From NCBI GenBank assembly GCA_023249225.1, contig JAHFDA010000011.1:1-58634 (forward strand): a stretch of 58,634 nucleotides of DNA, read 5' to 3'. Below are positions 27,345 to 34,236 of this stretch, one piece after another. Under the pieces are notes generated by a model. It had not been told where the DNA came from. It saw nothing but the letters and a program-made list of their open reading frames with translations, and did not search any database. Positions within the stretch are counted from its first letter, which is position 1; each line of letters begins with the position of its first letter. The DNA is from a bacterium (GTDB lineage Bacteria; Margulisbacteria; Marinamargulisbacteria; JAHFDA01). Made by a program: the position numbers and the translations under genes.

Positions 27345-28166
27345 TTAGCCTAAGAAATACTTTTTCAAAACGTCTGCCAGGGGCGTGGGCTGAAAATGAA
27401 AATGGTGCGGAATCGAGCGCTGGCTGCAAATGCGGTTTTCTTGCAAGAGCAAAAACTGGTCGGGTGTGGCGGCAAAGGGTAGCCGCAGCCAGGGCGTTAA
27501 GCCGATAAACGGTTTAATGAGTTCATAAGACAAGGGTAACTTTAGCCGTCGTTTGCCGCTCATTTGCATGAGCAAGTCGAGCAACTGACCCAGCGAGACA
27601 CGATCCTCGCCGCCTATGTTATAGGTTTGCCCCAGCGCTTCGGGCAGATCCAGCAGCTTAAAAATCAGTGTCACAGCATCGGCGACATCGACGGGTTGCA
27701 TCATGCTGTGGATGTTTACATAAGGCAGCAACGGAAAATAACGTACCATGCGTGCCAGTGCCTCGGTTTGGCCATCGCCGGGCCCGATCAGCGGAGCCAG
27801 GCGCACGATGATATGGGACAGGCCGCTCTGGATCAGGATTTGTTCCGCACTGTACTTGGCCTGCGCCAATGGACTGACGGCGTTGGGGCGGGATCCGATC
27901 AGGCTGACATACAGGATGCGCGGACTGCCCTGTTGGCGGGCGCAGGCGATAAGCTCCTGCATGCCTTCGACGATTGATTTTTCAAAGGTAATCCCGGCGG
28001 AGGGATGCTCGGTCAAAAGTTCATCGATATGCAGAATGGCTTCGTGCCCTTTAAGGTCAACAGAAATCTGATCGAGATTTCCAGCCTTAAGATCGTGTGT
28101 TCCGGCAGACGATAAAATCTGCCGACCCAGCCAGGAGCGCGATCCAGTTACGTAGACGCGGGACAC
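27345..28166 (-). CDS. NAD(P)-dependent epimerase/dehydratase-like protein
   Basis: 273 aa. Atypical SDR with a Rossmann start VYVTGSRSWLGRQIL, an ILYVSLIGSRPN strand, and AKYSAEQILIQSGLSHIIVRLAPLIGPGDG, resembling NDUFA9/NmrA-type and TIGR01777-like members more than sugar epimerases. The classical YxxxK is represented by KYSAEQ. The substrate is unknown. Its start overlaps the last 19 nt of uvrA, so both are on one transcript. Confidence 0.75.
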   Translation of the reverse strand: MSRVYVTGSRSWLGRQILSSAGTHDLKAGNLDQISVDLKGHEAILHIDELLTEHPSAGITFEKSIVEGMQELIACARQQGSPRILYVSLIGSRPNAVSPLAQAKYSAEQILIQSGLSHIIVRLAPLIGPGDGQTEALARMVRYFPLLPYVNIHSMMQPVDVADAVTLIFKLLDLPEALGQTYNIGGEDRVSLGQLLDLLMQMSGKRRLKLPLSYELIKPFIGLTPWLRLPFAATPDQFLLLQENRICSQRSIPHHFHFQPTPLADVLKKYFLG

Positions 28167-30952
28167 TTCATTAGTATATTAAATCGTTCGCGTAAATATT
28201 GGGCTGTGATGCCTTTGCCCGTTTTGAGTATTTTAGATAAGGCCCCCTGGTCAACGATGTGGCCACCTTTCGAACCGCCTGCGGGACCAAGATCAATCAG
28301 ATAGTCGCATTGCAACAAAAAATCCAGGTGGTGTTCAACCACAAGCAGGCTGTGGCCACGCATTAACAATTCGTGCAAGACGTTAAACAAGGTAGCAATG
28401 TCGTCGTGGTGCAATCCGGTGGTGGGTTCATCAAAGAGCAACAGATAACGTGCCTTGCTGCGGCTTTGCCCAAGCACCGTGGCCAGTTTTAGACGCTGGG
28501 ATTCACCACCCGACAGGGTGCTGGTGGCTTGCCCAAGGCGCAAGTAAGCCAGGCCAACCTGTACCAGGGGTTCCAGCGCGCGCAAAATCTTGGGCTGGTC
28601 CGAGAAAAATTGGCAGGCTTCGGAGGCGGTCAGATGCAGCATGTCGGCCACATTTTTTCCGCGGTAACGCACGGCCAGAGTTTGGGAGGTAAAGCGTTTT
28701 CCCTGGCAGGTATCGCAACACAAGGTTAAGTCGTCTAAAAATTGCATGTCATAGATGATTGCACCACGGCCTTCGCAAGCCGGGCAGCGCCCTTTTCCGG
28801 AATTAAACGAAAAATGCCCCGGCCCCAATTGTCTTTCTTTGGCGGCGGGAGTGGCTGCCAGCAGTGCGCGCAGAATTCCGTAGGCACCCGTTAAGGTGGC
28901 GGGGTTGCTGCGCGGCGAAGGTGACACCGGACTTTGGTCGATGAGCATGACCTCGTCCACCTGTTCCAGGCCCAGAATGGCGTCGCAGGGACCGCGGTCA
29001 ACTTCGGTATTGCCTTTGAGATACTGTGCCTGGCCATAGAGCACATGTTTCATTAAGGTTGTTTTTCCAGAACCTGAAATGCCGCTTAAGCACACCAGCC
29101 GGTTGAGTGGAATCCTGAAGGTCAGGTTTTTAAGGTTGTTGGCGCGGGCGTTGCGCACTTCGATAAATTCTTTGCACGGTGACCTGAATTGTGCGGGCCG
29201 CAGCAGGCTCTTTCCGGAGAGGGCGGCGCGGCTGCGGCTGTGCGCCGGAAGATCTCTCAAGCGCCCTTCGGCGACCAGATGGCCACCCGACTCACCGGCG
29301 CCGGGGCCAAGCTCGATGATGTGATCCGCTGCGGCAATGACTTGGCTGGCATGTTCTACCACCACCACGGTGTTGCCGCCAGTGACAAGTTGCTTGACCA
29401 AGGTCACCATGCGTTCAACATCGCAGGCATGCAAGCCGATGGTGGGTTCGTCGAGCACGTACAGACTTTGGGTCAGCGCGTTGCCCAGGGTATGCGCAAT
29501 GCGCAAGCGCTGGTACTCTCCGCCCGAGAGTGTGCGTGTGGGGCGGGCCAGGTTTAAATAAGTCAGGCCCATTTGGCATAGCAGGTCTACCCGGCGACAG
29601 ACTTCTTTCCATACCGTGCCAGCTTTGGCCTTGTCGGTCGGGTCAAGCGGCAGGGTGTTTAAAAACAGCTTCAGTTCGGGCAAGGGTAGTTGCCACAGGT
29701 CAGCGATGGAACGTCCGGCCAGCTTGACTTGCAGCGCCAGGGGGTTCAAACGTTGGCCCTGGCAGTGTGGGCAGGGCAGGTAAGCCCGGTAACGCGCCAA
29801 AAACACGCGTACATGCACTTTGTAACGCTGCTTTTCGAGTTGTTTAAAAAAACCGCGGATGCCGGGCCAATCATCTGCGGGACTGCCATCCTCAATCAGC
29901 TTGCGTTGGTTTTCTGCCAGTGCACGGTAGGGCAGATGGGTCGATATGCGGTGGTGATGGCATAGTGCCAACAGGGCAGCCAGGTAGTCTGCATACGCAG
30001 CATGTTGAAAGGGTGCCACGGCTCCAAAAGCCAGAGCCGAATTTTGGTTGACCGCTTTTTCCATGTCAATGTCGATGATGCGTCCGTAGCCCTCGCAGGC
30101 CGGACAAGCCCCCAAGGCAGAGTTAAACGAAAACCAGGCGGGCTCGGGCAGCGCAAAACGTTGCAGGCAGTTTGGGCAGCTGGGGGCATCAAAAACTTTA
30201 TTCAGACAAGTCTGCCCCTGCCAGACTTCAATGTGATAGCGGGTGGGGCCCAGTGTCAGCAGCACATGCCTACCAGCGGTTAACCCGTTTTCAAAAGCTT
30301 CCAGTACCCGTGAGCGGCGGATGTGTCCAGGGGTCAGACGGTCGAGCACCGCACACAAGGGTTCCTTATCCGGCAAGCAGGCTTTGAGTTCCACCCGTTC
30401 CCCGTTTTTAAAACCATGCCGATAACCCAGCTCGATAAGTTTTTGCGCAGCCTGCTCGTGGTTTTGAGGGTCTAAGCCATCAAAGACCAAAAGCAGCCAC
30501 AAGGGCGTGTCGCCAGCGCATTGCGACACTTGCAAGGCGCTTTGACTGGCATTGGGATGCACGACGGCTGTTTGGCAGCGCGGGCAATGCAGGTGGCCAA
30601 GGGTGCTGTAGAGCAATTTAAGGTAGTCATTAATTTCAGAAGCCGTGCCCACCGTAGAGCGGGCGTTGCGCACCACATTTTTTTGTTCAAAGGCAATGGC
30701 AGGAGGGATGCCGCGCACTGCATCGACTTCGGGCTTGAGCGCGCTTTTAAAATATTGGCGGCTATAGGTGCTGATCGATTCAAGAAAACGGCGTTGGCCT
30801 TCGGCGTAAAGCGTGGCAAAGGCCAATGAACTTTTTCCGCTGCCGCTGATGCCGGTGACCACCGTCAGTGCATGATGCGGAATACGCAGGTCCAGGTTCT
30901 TTAAGTTGTGAGTGCGGACGCCCTTAAGCTCGATAAAAGTTTTGGCAGACAT
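28148..30952 (-). CDS. uvrA: Excinuclease ABC subunit A
   Basis: 934 aa from ATG 30952. The frame is open for another 86 codons upstream, but that part overlaps the methyltransferase gene and lacks UvrA similarity. Two ABC modules: Walker A GISGSGKSS (34-42) and LSGISGSGKTT in the second half, signatures LSGGEYQRLRIA and LSGGESQRLKLA, plus CxxC zinc modules (CPRC, CPNC, CPAC). The region between CPRC and CPNC corresponding to the UvrB-binding domain is present. It detects bulky DNA damage. uvrB and uvrC are not in the window. Confidence 0.93.
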   Translation of the reverse strand: MSAKTFIELKGVRTHNLKNLDLRIPHHALTVVTGISGSGKSSLAFATLYAEGQRRFLESISTYSRQYFKSALKPEVDAVRGIPPAIAFEQKNVVRNARSTVGTASEINDYLKLLYSTLGHLHCPRCQTAVVHPNASQSALQVSQCAGDTPLWLLLVFDGLDPQNHEQAAQKLIELGYRHGFKNGERVELKACLPDKEPLCAVLDRLTPGHIRRSRVLEAFENGLTAGRHVLLTLGPTRYHIEVWQGQTCLNKVFDAPSCPNCLQRFALPEPAWFSFNSALGACPACEGYGRIIDIDMEKAVNQNSALAFGAVAPFQHAAYADYLAALLALCHHHRISTHLPYRALAENQRKLIEDGSPADDWPGIRGFFKQLEKQRYKVHVRVFLARYRAYLPCPHCQGQRLNPLALQVKLAGRSIADLWQLPLPELKLFLNTLPLDPTDKAKAGTVWKEVCRRVDLLCQMGLTYLNLARPTRTLSGGEYQRLRIAHTLGNALTQSLYVLDEPTIGLHACDVERMVTLVKQLVTGGNTVVVVEHASQVIAAADHIIELGPGAGESGGHLVAEGRLRDLPAHSRSRAALSGKSLLRPAQFRSPCKEFIEVRNARANNLKNLTFRIPLNRLVCLSGISGSGKTTLMKHVLYGQAQYLKGNTEVDRGPCDAILGLEQVDEVMLIDQSPVSPSPRSNPATLTGAYGILRALLAATPAAKERQLGPGHFSFNSGKGRCPACEGRGAIIYDMQFLDDLTLCCDTCQGKRFTSQTLAVRYRGKNVADMLHLTASEACQFFSDQPKILRALEPLVQVGLAYLRLGQATSTLSGGESQRLKLATVLGQSRSKARYLLLFDEPTTGLHHDDIATLFNVLHELLMRGHSLLVVEHHLDFLLQCDYLIDLGPAGGSKGGHIVDQGALSKILKTGKGITAQYLRERFNILMKCPAST

Positions 30953-30977
30953 GCTGAACCATTCAGTATATTCCGCA

Positions 30978-31781
30978 TTAGGGTTTAGAGGCCACCAGGC
31001 AAAGCTCATCTCCCCAATGTAATAGCTGAGCGGCAACCAGCACGCCCGAAACCAGAACTTGCTTCCACCAGGGCCGCTGGGGGTCGTCATGATCCATCGA
31101 ACGTTTAAACACGCAGGTGACCCGTAAGCCGGCCGCTTCGACCAGGCGCGCAAGGCTTTGCGGTTCGTATTGCCACACATGTTGGTCGATGCCCAGGCCA
31201 TACCAGCCATCTCCTTTGGCGCGGCGCATCAGGCTGGCATAGTTAGGCAGGCAGATGAACACATGGCCGCCGGGCGCCAGGCGTTCGCGGGTTAAAGCCA
31301 AAAAAGGTAGCGGGTCATGGATATGTTCGAGCACATGAATGATCGAGATGACATCAAACTGCTGGTTCACAAAGGCGGCTTGCGACCACAGACCGGCGAA
31401 GATCTTGTGGCCATGCACGGCAGCCACCTGTGCTCCCACGCTGGTTTCAACACCGTAGGTGTCAAAACCAGCCGCCTTGGCGCCGTCCAGGGTGCCGCCC
31501 ACATTGCAGCCAATATCCAACCAGCTTCCGCCTGGGTGATAGTGCTGTACCCAGGCCACATCCCGACGGGAATATTTTTCAAGCAGGGTTTTGTGGCTTT
31601 GGTAGTACTGCTCGCGATCCGTCAGGCTGTACAGGTTGTCATAGCCAGGATACGGCGTGGGATGGGTTTGGATCAGACCGCATTTGGCGCAGCGTAAAAG
31701 TTCAAACGTACCCACTTTTGGAAAATTTCCTGTGCGAATGCTTTCCAGATGTTGGTCGGTCTTACAAATGGGGCAAGGCAT
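30978..31781 (-). CDS. SAM-dependent methyltransferase with N-terminal zinc ribbon
   Basis: 267 aa. N-terminal cysteine pairs CPIC and CAKC form a probable zinc ribbon. A class I methyltransferase domain follows: WLDIGCNVGGTLDGAKAAG (motif I), then FDVISIIHVLEHIHDPLPFL and PGGHVFICLPN. It resembles Methyltransf_23 enzymes found in sugar or lipid modification clusters. It begins a reverse run leading to uvrA. Substrate unknown. Confidence 0.85.
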   Translation of the reverse strand: MPCPICKTDQHLESIRTGNFPKVGTFELLRCAKCGLIQTHPTPYPGYDNLYSLTDREQYYQSHKTLLEKYSRRDVAWVQHYHPGGSWLDIGCNVGGTLDGAKAAGFDTYGVETSVGAQVAAVHGHKIFAGLWSQAAFVNQQFDVISIIHVLEHIHDPLPFLALTRERLAPGGHVFICLPNYASLMRRAKGDGWYGLGIDQHVWQYEPQSLARLVEAAGLRVTCVFKRSMDHDDPQRPWWKQVLVSGVLVAAQLLHWGDELCLVASKP

Positions 31782-31806: not shown

Positions 31807-34236
31807 ATGATTTATGTAGTGTTTTTACGCTTGGTATTTGTGGCGATCATGTTTAGTTTTTCCACGTTGCATGCCGCCTTGGTCGACGATGTGCTTAAAC
31901 AAGGCTATGGCGTGCGCCCGCTGGGTATGGGCGGAGCCTTTACCTCGGTTGCAGACGACGAGTGGTCTTTGTATTGGAACCCGGCGGGTTTGGCGGGCAA
32001 GGGTTTTTCATATGTATATCAAGATCACGACCAGCGCAACACCTTTACCAGTGTTTTCGAAACCAAATCAGTTTATCTGGGTCCCTTTGCATGGTCGAAC
32101 ATTACGCGCACCAACCTCAATGGCGGCAGTATTGAAGTGAATCATTATGGTTTTGGCCGCCGCAGCCGCAATGGAGTGGATTGGGGTGTGGGGTATAAAA
32201 ATGTGTCCGATTATTCCACGGGCATGCTGGGTTGGACCAGCGATCTGGGTTTACTGGCGCATATCCTGCCCAACGTCGATGTGGGTTTTGTGGCCCAGGA
32301 TATTCTCAAAGACCGTGTAAACACCGCTGCGTCGGCGCGCTTGGGGCTTTCGATGTTTATGCCCGAGCGCTCATTTATTGTGGCAGCCGAAGGTGAATAT
32401 CTCTCGGGCGGCCAACTCTATCCGCATGTGGGAATAGAGTGGGAAGTTGCGCCTGGCCTGGCACTGCGTGGCGGACTGTTTCGAAGCAAACCCAGCATGG
32501 GCGCCAGCATGGTGCTTCCGATATTGGGCGATGTGGAATACGCCGCCATCTCCAATTACCAGGACAGTGGCGAAACGGTGCATATGTTTGGTTACCGCAT
32601 TGGGGTGGCCAAGCGTCGCCAGTACCGCCGACCTATTACCATGATTTCACAGGAAGAAGTGGTCGAAATTGCTTTGGGCGGAAACATGATTGCCGGAAAA
32701 ACCGAAGTTAGTTTGTTGGGGGGTTCTAAAGAAGGTGCGGATGATCTGTTGCAACTTTTGCGGGCGGCGGTGGATGAGCCTAGCGTCAAAGGTATTGTGA
32801 TTCGGGTAGAGAGCATGGGGCAGGGCATGGGCATGCTGGCGTTGGTTCAGGAATTCCGGCAGGAGATCTTGCGGGCTCGGGCCAATGGCAAAAAAGTGGT
32901 GGCCTTTTTAGACGGCTGGAACACCCTGCCGGAGTTTTATCTGGCATCGGCGGCAGACCGTATTGTCATTCCGGAATTAGGGATGATTAGTCACCTGGGC
33001 GTCATGTTACAAACTTATAAACTAGCTGGCTTGCAAGATCTTTTGGGTGTGCGTCCGCAAATTATCTTTCATGGCAAACACAAGGTGGCGTTGTTTGATA
33101 GTACCGATATCAGCGATGAGAGCAAACTTCAGCTGAAAACGGTGCTTGAATCGCTTTATCACATTGTGGTGGACGATGTGCGTCAGGATCGCGGCGAGCG
33201 TTTAAGTTCTCAACCGGCCCAGATTTTTGGCGGACAGTTTATCAGTGCCAAAGAATCGCTCAAAATGGGGCTGGTTGACCGCCTGGGGTTTTATGAAGTG
33301 GCGCGTGACGAAATGAAGTCATTGCTCAACAAGGAACCTGCTTATCTAAAGGCTGAATACCTTAAAGAGTTTGAGCTTCAGTTTGATCAGATGGGGCCCA
33401 CCACTATTTTAAGCGCCTTTAATCGTATTGCCATTATTGAAATTGACGGCCCTATTGTCGATGGTGAATCTGGAGAAAACATTTTGTTTGGCGGCAAGAG
33501 TGTGGGGTCAGAAACCATTGTGCAGCAGATCAAGCAGGCGGCCGATGATATCGGCGTGCGGGCCGTGATCTTGCGGGTCAATAGCCCCGGTGGATCGGCC
33601 ATTGCGTCCCAGGAAGTGCTCGAGGCTTTGCGCAAACTTAAAGATCGGCATAAGCCCGTGGTGGTCTCCATGGGTAATATGGCCGCCTCGGGCGGCTACA
33701 TGGTCAGTGCCGAAGCCGATCGCATTATTGCCAATCCAGCCACTTTTACGGGTTCTATTGGCGTGGTATCGGTGTTTCCTTATCAGGCCGATCTTTTACG
33801 CAAACTTAAAATTGATACCCTTACGCTTAAAGAAGGCGATTCAATGGACGCCACCGCAGGTACCCGGCGTTTTACCCCCGAGGAACGTCAGTTGCTGCAG
33901 AGCATCCTGGATGAAACCTATGATAAGTTTGTTGAGATCGTCAGCAACGGTCGCAAGATCAGCAAAGCCGATCTGGCAGACGTGGCCCAGGGACAAATTT
34001 TTACTGGAACGCAGGCTCTGGAGCTTAAACTGGTGGATGAACTTGGAAATTTTCAGACGGCCGTCAATGTGGCCGAAGCATTGGCGCATATTGATACCGG
34101 TAAAAGTCAGCTGATGTATTACCGCACGTCACCAGGCTTGTTTTCTAATCTTGGCGGCCAGGCAGCAGCTTGGTTTGGCAACAATATAAGAATGATGTTA
34201 AGCCTGGAACCGGAGATCAAGTTTTCAGCCTTATAG
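31807..34236 (+). CDS. sppA: PorV/FadL-like outer-membrane barrel fused to SppA (S49) protease
   Basis: 809 aa from ATG 31807, chosen because a signal peptide follows at once (cleavage near LHA, residue 23). Residues 24 to ~270 carry the PorV/FadL/UPF0164-type opening RPLGMGGAFTSVADD (37-51) and LYWNPAGLA (55-63), then many alternating strands. From ~280 a complete two-part S49 protease follows, with catalytic Lys426 (in HGKHKVALFD, matching E. coli Lys209) and Ser628 (NMAASGGYM). SppA normally sits in the inner membrane and cleaves residual signal peptides. Here the protease would be tethered to the outer membrane. The reading frame is continuous, with no internal start signals noted. Confidence 0.88.
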   Translation: MIYVVFLRLVFVAIMFSFSTLHAALVDDVLKQGYGVRPLGMGGAFTSVADDEWSLYWNPAGLAGKGFSYVYQDHDQRNTFTSVFETKSVYLGPFAWSNITRTNLNGGSIEVNHYGFGRRSRNGVDWGVGYKNVSDYSTGMLGWTSDLGLLAHILPNVDVGFVAQDILKDRVNTAASARLGLSMFMPERSFIVAAEGEYLSGGQLYPHVGIEWEVAPGLALRGGLFRSKPSMGASMVLPILGDVEYAAISNYQDSGETVHMFGYRIGVAKRRQYRRPITMISQEEVVEIALGGNMIAGKTEVSLLGGSKEGADDLLQLLRAAVDEPSVKGIVIRVESMGQGMGMLALVQEFRQEILRARANGKKVVAFLDGWNTLPEFYLASAADRIVIPELGMISHLGVMLQTYKLAGLQDLLGVRPQIIFHGKHKVALFDSTDISDESKLQLKTVLESLYHIVVDDVRQDRGERLSSQPAQIFGGQFISAKESLKMGLVDRLGFYEVARDEMKSLLNKEPAYLKAEYLKEFELQFDQMGPTTILSAFNRIAIIEIDGPIVDGESGENILFGGKSVGSETIVQQIKQAADDIGVRAVILRVNSPGGSAIASQEVLEALRKLKDRHKPVVVSMGNMAASGGYMVSAEADRIIANPATFTGSIGVVSVFPYQADLLRKLKIDTLTLKEGDSMDATAGTRRFTPEERQLLQSILDETYDKFVEIVSNGRKISKADLADVAQGQIFTGTQALELKLVDELGNFQTAVNVAEALAHIDTGKSQLMYYRTSPGLFSNLGGQAAAWFGNNIRMMLSLEPEIKFSAL

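Follow-up and report, generated by a model that had tools for sequence, protein, structure and literature searches.

A predicted FadL/PorV-type barrel joined to a two-repeat S49 protease in single proteins of Margulisbacteria, Zixibacteriota and Myxococcota: a probable outer-membrane-tethered periplasmic peptidase

SppA of Escherichia coli (protease IV, 67K; structures 3bez and 3bf0) is described in a review as an inner-membrane tetramer with an N-terminal helix anchor and active sites far from the membrane, acting on released signal peptides (PMC9360617). Like E. coli SppA, the fusion protein considered here has tandem S49 repeats with a lysine in the first and a serine in the second; where the E. 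coli enzyme is anchored by its N-terminal helix, the fusion has a signal peptide and a predicted 14-strand barrel. Short SppA proteins of approximately 300 aa (SppA36K type) share the S49 catalytic domain with the fusion and lack a barrel, and the one such protein checked (L148) has a strongly hydrophobic N-terminus. On the barrel side, the fatty-acid and hydrocarbon channels FadL, TodX and TbuX have the 14-strand barrel, N-terminal hatch and NPA motif in common with the fusion, whereas the fusion barrel is shorter, has very short outer loops and is followed by a protease. PorV and PorQ of the type IX system resemble the fusion in barrel fold and through a weak N-terminal profile match, but the fusion scores below the family cut-offs, the genome that encodes it has no SprA match over cut-off, and an extra enzyme domain is present. 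OmpA-type proteins likewise place an N-terminal barrel ahead of a periplasmic domain, but have 8 strands and a peptidoglycan-binding domain, and no protease. No description of a barrel-SppA fusion was recognised in the open-access full-text literature searched, and none of four SppA/S49 terms occurs in the main text of a paper on Myxococcus vesicles (PMC4158809).

The fusion gene was identified in a margulisbacterial window (the whole stretch of DNA analysed, 58,634 nucleotides) at 31807-34236 on the plus strand, where a single open frame encodes 809 aa followed by a stop. This frame is also open 5' up to a GTG at 31657, and the ATG at 31807 yields a normal-looking signal peptide. A signal peptide at the head of an 809-aa frame had been proposed in a first-pass annotation, and both were borne out on reading the frame and applying a simple, generous rule based on hydropathy and an AxA-like site (a 10-aa hydrophobic stretch of KD 2.80 starts at residue 9, and residue 23 is the last of an AxA-like site). 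A lipoprotein anchor was considered for the window protein and rejected, since the sequence has no lipobox cysteine. The gene is solitary on the plus strand with minus-strand frames on either side, and no promoter-like site was found on the plus strand in the window (3 in all, versus 3.0 expected). Separately, a 1020-aa frame at 28148-31210 on the minus strand resembles a UvrA-like excision ATPase by eye, and a methyltransferase-like gene at 30978-31781 (also by eye) adjoins it. The features of the fusion gene are as follows.

31807-31875, plus strand: predicted signal peptide, residues 1-23, without a lipobox cysteine (simple rule).
31876-32004, plus strand: predicted N-terminal hatch or plug, residues 24-66, with NPA at 58-60 and helices at 36-40, 51-57 and 59-63; structural match to FadL/TodX/TbuX begins at 25-28.
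32005-32607, plus strand: predicted 14-stranded beta-barrel (DSSP), residues 67-267; pLDDT of 10-residue blocks 74-94.
32608-32652, plus strand: linker, residues 268-282; pLDDT below 50 for 271-281.
32653-33396, plus strand: S49 first repeat, residues 283 to approximately 530, holding Lys426; PF01343 match at 32875-33327.
33082-33084, plus strand: codon AAG of Lys426, putative general base; invariant in 18/18 rows.
33397-34131, plus strand: S49 second repeat, residues approximately 531-775, holding Ser628; PF01343 match at 33637-34092 and phmmer matches to 3bez, 4kwb and 3rst.
33688-33690, plus strand: codon TCG of Ser628, putative nucleophile in an AASGGY motif; invariant in 18/18 rows, the motif lining up with the AASGGY stretch in E. 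coli SppA.
34132-34233, plus strand: C-terminal tail, residues 776-809; poorly modelled (pLDDT below 50), variable, gappy in the alignment.

The window protein was modelled with AlphaFold2 on an 18-row alignment (A1) comprising itself and 17 homologues 29-37% identical to it, with an overall pLDDT of 83.1 and pTM of 0.70. The 17 homologues were taken from fusion loci, with L007, L020, L023 and L025 (full-length) and L027 and L028 (partial) omitted; two further fusion alignments contained 11 rows (A2, truncated L172 omitted) and 9 rows (A3, L155, L157 and L159 omitted, the last lacking NPA). Start codons of some aligned fusions were chosen with the help of NPA. The earlier proposal that residues 24-270 form a barrel agrees with the model, in which 14 strands occupy residues 67-267, and the motif RPLGMGGAF...LYWNPAGLA, cited as the mark of a barrel-type domain, was found at residues 37-63, within the part (residues 24-267) that models as a barrel with its hatch. 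Using VIA-align, residues 25-267 matched TbuX at Z 27.4 (rmsd 2.3 over 237 residues), CymD at 27.0, TodX at 26.4 and FadL at 26.3; PorV of the type IX translocon (6h3i_F and 8gl6_F) matched the window model at Z 27.2 and 26.6, over a range that continues into the protease. FadL was also listed by Foldseek (E 4.2e-8). OmpG, another 14-strand barrel, gave a Z of just 14.8 against the window model, so the likeness is to hatch-bearing barrels of the FadL type in particular, not to barrels in general. Model confidence is low across the linker (residues 271-281), and the model therefore does not define how barrel and protease lie relative to each other.

In profile searches, the first part of the window protein matched PorV/PorQ models weakly, at 27.4 and 25.4 bits over approximately 40 residues and far below cut-off, and scored 25.4 and 29 bits over approximately 43 residues against the NCBIfam PorV/PorQ family NF033709, whose cut-off is 90 bits; PorV_fam was matched by 13/15 margulisbacterial N-domains at E 0.001 or better. 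With profile matches this short and weak, the barrel assignment is made because the predicted structure supports it, and the first part of the window protein models as a FadL/TodX/PorV-type 14-strand barrel with an N-terminal hatch. It is not classed as a type IX PorV, because it scores below the NF033709 cut-off and the SprA matches in its genome are likewise sub-cut-off. In the HMM searches of both halves for which the first-pass annotation had asked, the S49 half scored above its cut-off, and the barrel half reached the PorV/PorQ models at sub-cut-off scores.

In the hatch, N58, P59 and A60 are invariant in 18/18 rows of A1 and in all rows of A2 and A3. Among wider sets, NPA was found in 26/27 close and 4/4 divergent margulisbacterial frames and in 20/21 Zixibacteriota frames, and is missing from 1 of 24 distinct myxococcal frames that have the extension. 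The motif corresponds to that named in the entry titles of FadL mutant structures (N33A, P34A and delta NPA). These observations bear on a reading in which the FadL-type barrel is still a channel for hydrophobic ligands or peptides, its hatch opening over the S49 domain so that imported material is digested on entry. Hatch helices and NPA (18/18 rows) are retained, NPA is the very motif probed in the FadL mutants, and the barrel-only homologues described below imply that the barrel is useful in its own right. The barrel is short, however (approximately 240 residues aligned against target lengths of 345-427), and with its very short outer loops may leave no ligand site; the known FadL ligands are not peptides, and one frame in each of the three sets (1/27 close margulisbacterial, 1/21 Zixibacteriota, 1/24 myxococcal) lacks NPA. 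We consider this reading unlikely. Were it true, an NPA-gated FadL-type pore over an S49 ring would combine uptake and digestion in one machine in at least three phyla, a prospect to which we assign the same low probability.

The window protein scored 242.8 bits against Pfam S49 (cut-off 24.9) with two places over cut-off, and model residues 281-774 superposed on E. coli SppA (3bez) at Z 38.5, with an rmsd of 2.9 over 461 residues. Lys426 sits in a G-x-x-K stretch whose spacing is also invariant in A2 and A3. We take Lys209 and Ser409 to be the E. coli SppA counterparts of Lys426 and Ser628. The intact S49 protease claimed from the letters, with these two residues, is upheld by their invariance in 18/18 rows and by the two PF01343 matches. 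Residues 283-775 are accordingly described as a two-repeat S49 protease with Lys426/Ser628 as its dyad residues, a description drawn from alignment and model under which catalysis would be expected. The SppA_67K model TIGR00705 (cut-off 311.45 bits) scored the window protein at 298.5 and the myxococcal L076 at 301.3, both below cut-off, and the Zixibacteriota member L044 at 319.5, above it. The window protein is not classed as an E. coli-type SppA, because it falls below this cut-off and has no inner-membrane anchor.

To survey the phylum, the 18-row profile was searched against 56 Margulisbacteria genomes of completeness 80 or more, the window's own genome included. A match running from profile position 13 or earlier to 776 or later within a single frame of 779-882 aa was found in 27 of them; a stop is listed inside the match in three of these 27 rows, and all 27 still have one open frame with both parts and the dyad. 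In four more genomes (G031, G034, G043 and G024) the frames measure 777-825 aa; their N-terminal part is divergent and contains NPA, and both dyad residues are present. A barrel-S49 frame is thus present in 31/56 genomes, with both dyad residues in 27/27 close and 4/4 divergent frames. Outside the window's class, many genomes of the phylum matched the fusion profile 5-17 times, with many matches falling in its first 280 positions, the mark of a large PorV-like barrel family. In a separate set of 80 loci, the barrel extension was found at L035, L036, L044 and L076, of which L035 and L036, as named relatives, place the window in Candidatus Margulisbacteria/Saganbacteria; L073 and L094 have extensions of 130-160 residues without the motif, and L037 starts inside the gene. 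These 80 loci were selected by closeness to the protease part and so give no estimate of frequency. Two loci of this set, which comprises the 80 best of one genome scan, belong to other phyla: L044, on a Zixibacteriota chromosome, and L076, from a Myxococcales bacterium.

This recurrence settles whether the fusion could be an artefact of assembly or gene calling, or a frame error. The window does come from a genome in 121 contigs. Single frames through both parts are nevertheless found in the 27 genomes and the four divergent ones, in the 3.8 Mb chromosome record of L044, and in contigs 2.1 and 5.0 Mb long, and an artefact, ruled out by recurrence in dozens of genomes, retains a negligible probability. 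The first-pass annotation had asked for related genomes with the same architecture, and these are supplied, the chromosome record included; it had also named separate halves as a sign of an assembly error, and a few related genomes do have the halves apart, yet alongside many intact fusions, which argues against that error.

Samples of 80 Zixibacteriota and 77 Myxococcota genomes were each drawn evenly from a larger group. By frame length and match, 68/80 Zixibacteriota genomes have an S49 frame of at least 777 aa with a match reaching the N-domain; of the remainder, the long-type frame is shorter in 7, and in 5 all S49 genes are of the short kind. At the 21 Zixibacteriota loci read, an N-terminal extension of at least 200 residues and the serine were present in 21/21 and the lysine in 19/21 (pairwise alignment), with a lysine also recognisable by eye in one of the two exceptions. 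AlphaFold2 modelled a Zixibacteriota member less well than the window protein (pLDDT 69.8), again with 14 strands, and this model matched TodX, PorV and FadL at Z 19-20. Among the Myxococcota, at least 22/77 genomes had matches that extend to the N-domain within frames no shorter than 839 aa, and 8 further genomes, read singly (G083, G089, G092, G093, G108, G127, G132 and G143), have a long N-extension with NPA; judging from these matches, fusion-bearing Myxococcota genomes in the sample may number 30 or more. Five of 21 myxococcal regions (L205, L207, L208, L209 and L215) had no recognised fusion frame at first and were left out of neighbour counts; reread without frame competition, four of the five have a long N-extension with NPA, L215 (a 680-aa frame) being the exception. 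At position 426, pairwise alignment placed A in L196, L197 and L218 and E in L213, and a lysine lies close to the aligned position by eye in L196 (YKSA), L218 (FKTA) and L213 (HKSP); the missing lysine in these three looks like misalignment. The second barrel-S49 frame of one myxococcal genome (L213:7782-10487, G121:C12) has AGGAGYY where others have the serine motif, and an intact fusion is present elsewhere in that genome (G121:C7). L213 is probably a protease-dead paralogue, and without the nucleophile serine it indicates that not every member of the fusion family can be an active protease.

The N-terminal parts of the four groups were compared as profiles, at 99.1% for Margulisbacteria and Zixibacteriota, 96.7% for Margulisbacteria and Myxococcota, 94.9% for Margulisbacteria and the divergent set, 99.4% for Zixibacteriota and Myxococcota, and 98.6% for Zixibacteriota and the divergent set; reversed and column-shuffled controls of these five gave at most 3.5%. 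The comparison of Myxococcota with the divergent set was weak (57.4%, uncontrolled). On the first five comparisons, the N-domains are homologous across groups by profile. A signal-peptide-like start was present in 41/41 aligned fusions by the same generous rule, and beyond NPA none of the 41 contains a 19-residue window that reaches KD 1.8. Among 28 unfused 67K-type S49 proteins, 21 show such a window within the 110 residues that precede the S49 domain and 7 do not, the measures for the fused and unfused sets being not identical. In the window protein no inner-membrane helix is joined to the protease; it has a signal-peptide-like N-terminus and the barrel instead, in keeping with the signal peptide of the first-pass annotation.

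The side of the membrane was approached through the barrel. An even strand count with an N-terminal hatch inside leaves both barrel ends periplasmic, as in FadL. With 14 strands and the hatch inside, both ends of the fusion barrel should face the periplasm, and so should the protease. Turns on the terminus side are the shorter ones in both models, with means of 3.2 versus 4.7 residues for the window protein and 2.5 versus 7.3 for the Zixibacteriota member. Of the surface or periplasmic role first suggested, the surface alternative is thus disfavoured by the predicted ends and the turns, and the periplasmic side is kept as our reading.

Neighbouring genes were read for 20 margulisbacterial loci (19 and the window) and 21 Zixibacteriota loci. 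The shared margulisbacterial neighbours read as housekeeping genes by eye. In 15/21 Zixibacteriota loci (L184 and 14 more) an upstream gene, at -2 or -3 in 14 of them, reads as a patatin-POTRA-barrel protein; this gene (approximately 880 aa, divergent) would combine a patatin-like phospholipase, POTRA and an outer-membrane barrel, which would make it another enzyme-barrel fusion close to the one studied here. A homologous gene of approximately 320-410 aa is directly upstream of the fusion in 15/21 loci, and a pair of M16-like peptidase genes lies downstream in 7/21. A SprA-type gene occurs at -3 in 4/21 loci (BLAST cluster, HMM-tested in L044 only), where L044:143-2929 is a SprA/Sov-type gene (TIGR04189, 259.9 bits versus a cut-off of 200) three genes upstream of the fusion, with peptidase-like genes around. 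The Zixibacteriota neighbours are envelope company, too inconstant to name a pathway.

The SprA-type gene raises a secretion-linked role, in which a PorV-like shuttle would dock to a SprA-type translocon or another export machine and its protease would trim or clear failed cargo. The fold match to PorV, the 13 PorV_fam-matching N-domains and the SprA-type neighbour of the L044 clade are all in its favour. Set against these, the best SprA match in the window's genome (97% complete) is 51.3 bits versus the cut-off of 200, at G000:C38:6883-7221 within a 901-aa frame (L175, L238); the other 17/21 Zixibacteriota loci have no SprA-type neighbour in the stretch fetched, the margulisbacterial neighbours have their housekeeping appearance, and the window protein reaches 29 of the 90 bits of PorV_fam. 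We regard such a role as quite improbable.

Short S49 genes were found in the same genome as the fusion, rather than adjacent to it, in at least 58/68 Zixibacteriota genomes (where they encode 295-345 aa), and in at least 7/31 margulisbacterial genomes (G004, G009, G010, G011, G012, G014 and G031), and a short gene kept alongside the fusion suggests division of labour. A Pfam S49 search found no second S49 gene in the window's genome, where the fusion would therefore cover any inner-membrane task, or the task is dispensable. A change of anchor with the same job would fit the latter genome, the barrel replacing the N-terminal helix and ordinary periplasmic signal-peptide clearance proceeding from the outer-membrane side: the two S49 repeats and the dyad are complete, no other S49 gene is at hand, and a review gives as the targets of SppA those signal peptides that have been set free in the periplasm (PMC9360617). 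Where the short gene is retained, as in those Zixibacteriota genomes, equating the fusion with the housekeeping enzyme is too simple, and we hold this account to be rather unlikely.

Barrel-only genes occur in surroundings like those of the fusion in other genomes. In G005 one (L029:1468-2316) lies directly after a TsaB-like gene by eye, and a TsaB-like neighbour adjoins the fusion in 8/20 margulisbacterial loci. In G057 another (L240, G057:C125:7239-8036) lies between RsmH-like and GltX-like genes by eye, and genes of these two kinds border the fusion in a few further genomes (L009, L014); GltX occupies position -1 at 4 loci, and RsmH position +1 or +2 at 4. The protease half was lost or never gained in these two genomes. 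A barrel-only gene stands in tandem directly upstream of the fusion in G056 (L140, G056:C8:18563-21781) and G058 (L141, G058:C46). The existence of barrel-only genes indicates that the halves separate in evolution and that the barrel is useful alone, not merely as an anchor.

The origin of the fusion was examined with a tree of 67 S49 domains (39 fused and 28 unfused); 31 unfused candidates were tried, L068, L078 and L149 being skipped for low coverage, and the 8th and 15th rows of A1 were omitted. The fused state requires 3 changes on this tree. Margulisbacterial, myxococcal and Zixibacteriota fusions each form one group (the last weakly supported, 89/29), the groups do not join, and a single clade of all fused domains is weakly rejected (p-AU 0.034, lnL 22.75 lower). 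Repeated fusion and a single old fusion followed by losses are both possible, and we claim neither.

Taken in this architecture and on this side of the membrane, an outer-membrane-tethered periplasmic S49 protease is the reading we favour as reasonably probable, given the alignments and models. We infer for the fusion the following course of outer-membrane insertion, periplasmic placement, oligomer formation, catalysis and substrate use. The signal peptide would route the chain through Sec and then be cleaved off, and the minimal 14-strand FadL/PorV-type barrel (residues 24-267) would insert into the outer membrane. The two-repeat S49 domain would hang in the periplasm from the short linker and, by analogy with E. 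coli SppA, may form a tetramer with Ser628/Lys426 sites. It could then trim peptides and protein fragments near the outer membrane rather than the inner membrane, which makes the protein-clearing role first suggested plausible. We would place the protein among the S49 peptidases, as one that bears a FadL/PorV-superfamily barrel.

The usual view of SppA is that of an inner-membrane enzyme for the disposal of signal peptides. A widespread outer-membrane form would shift its proteolysis across the periplasm and give some Gram-negative lineages a second, spatially separate site of peptide disposal or processing, with an N-terminal barrel and a periplasmic serine protease as a natural design. Proteins of 770-960 aa that are called simply 'SppA' on the basis of an S49 domain may be located in the other membrane.
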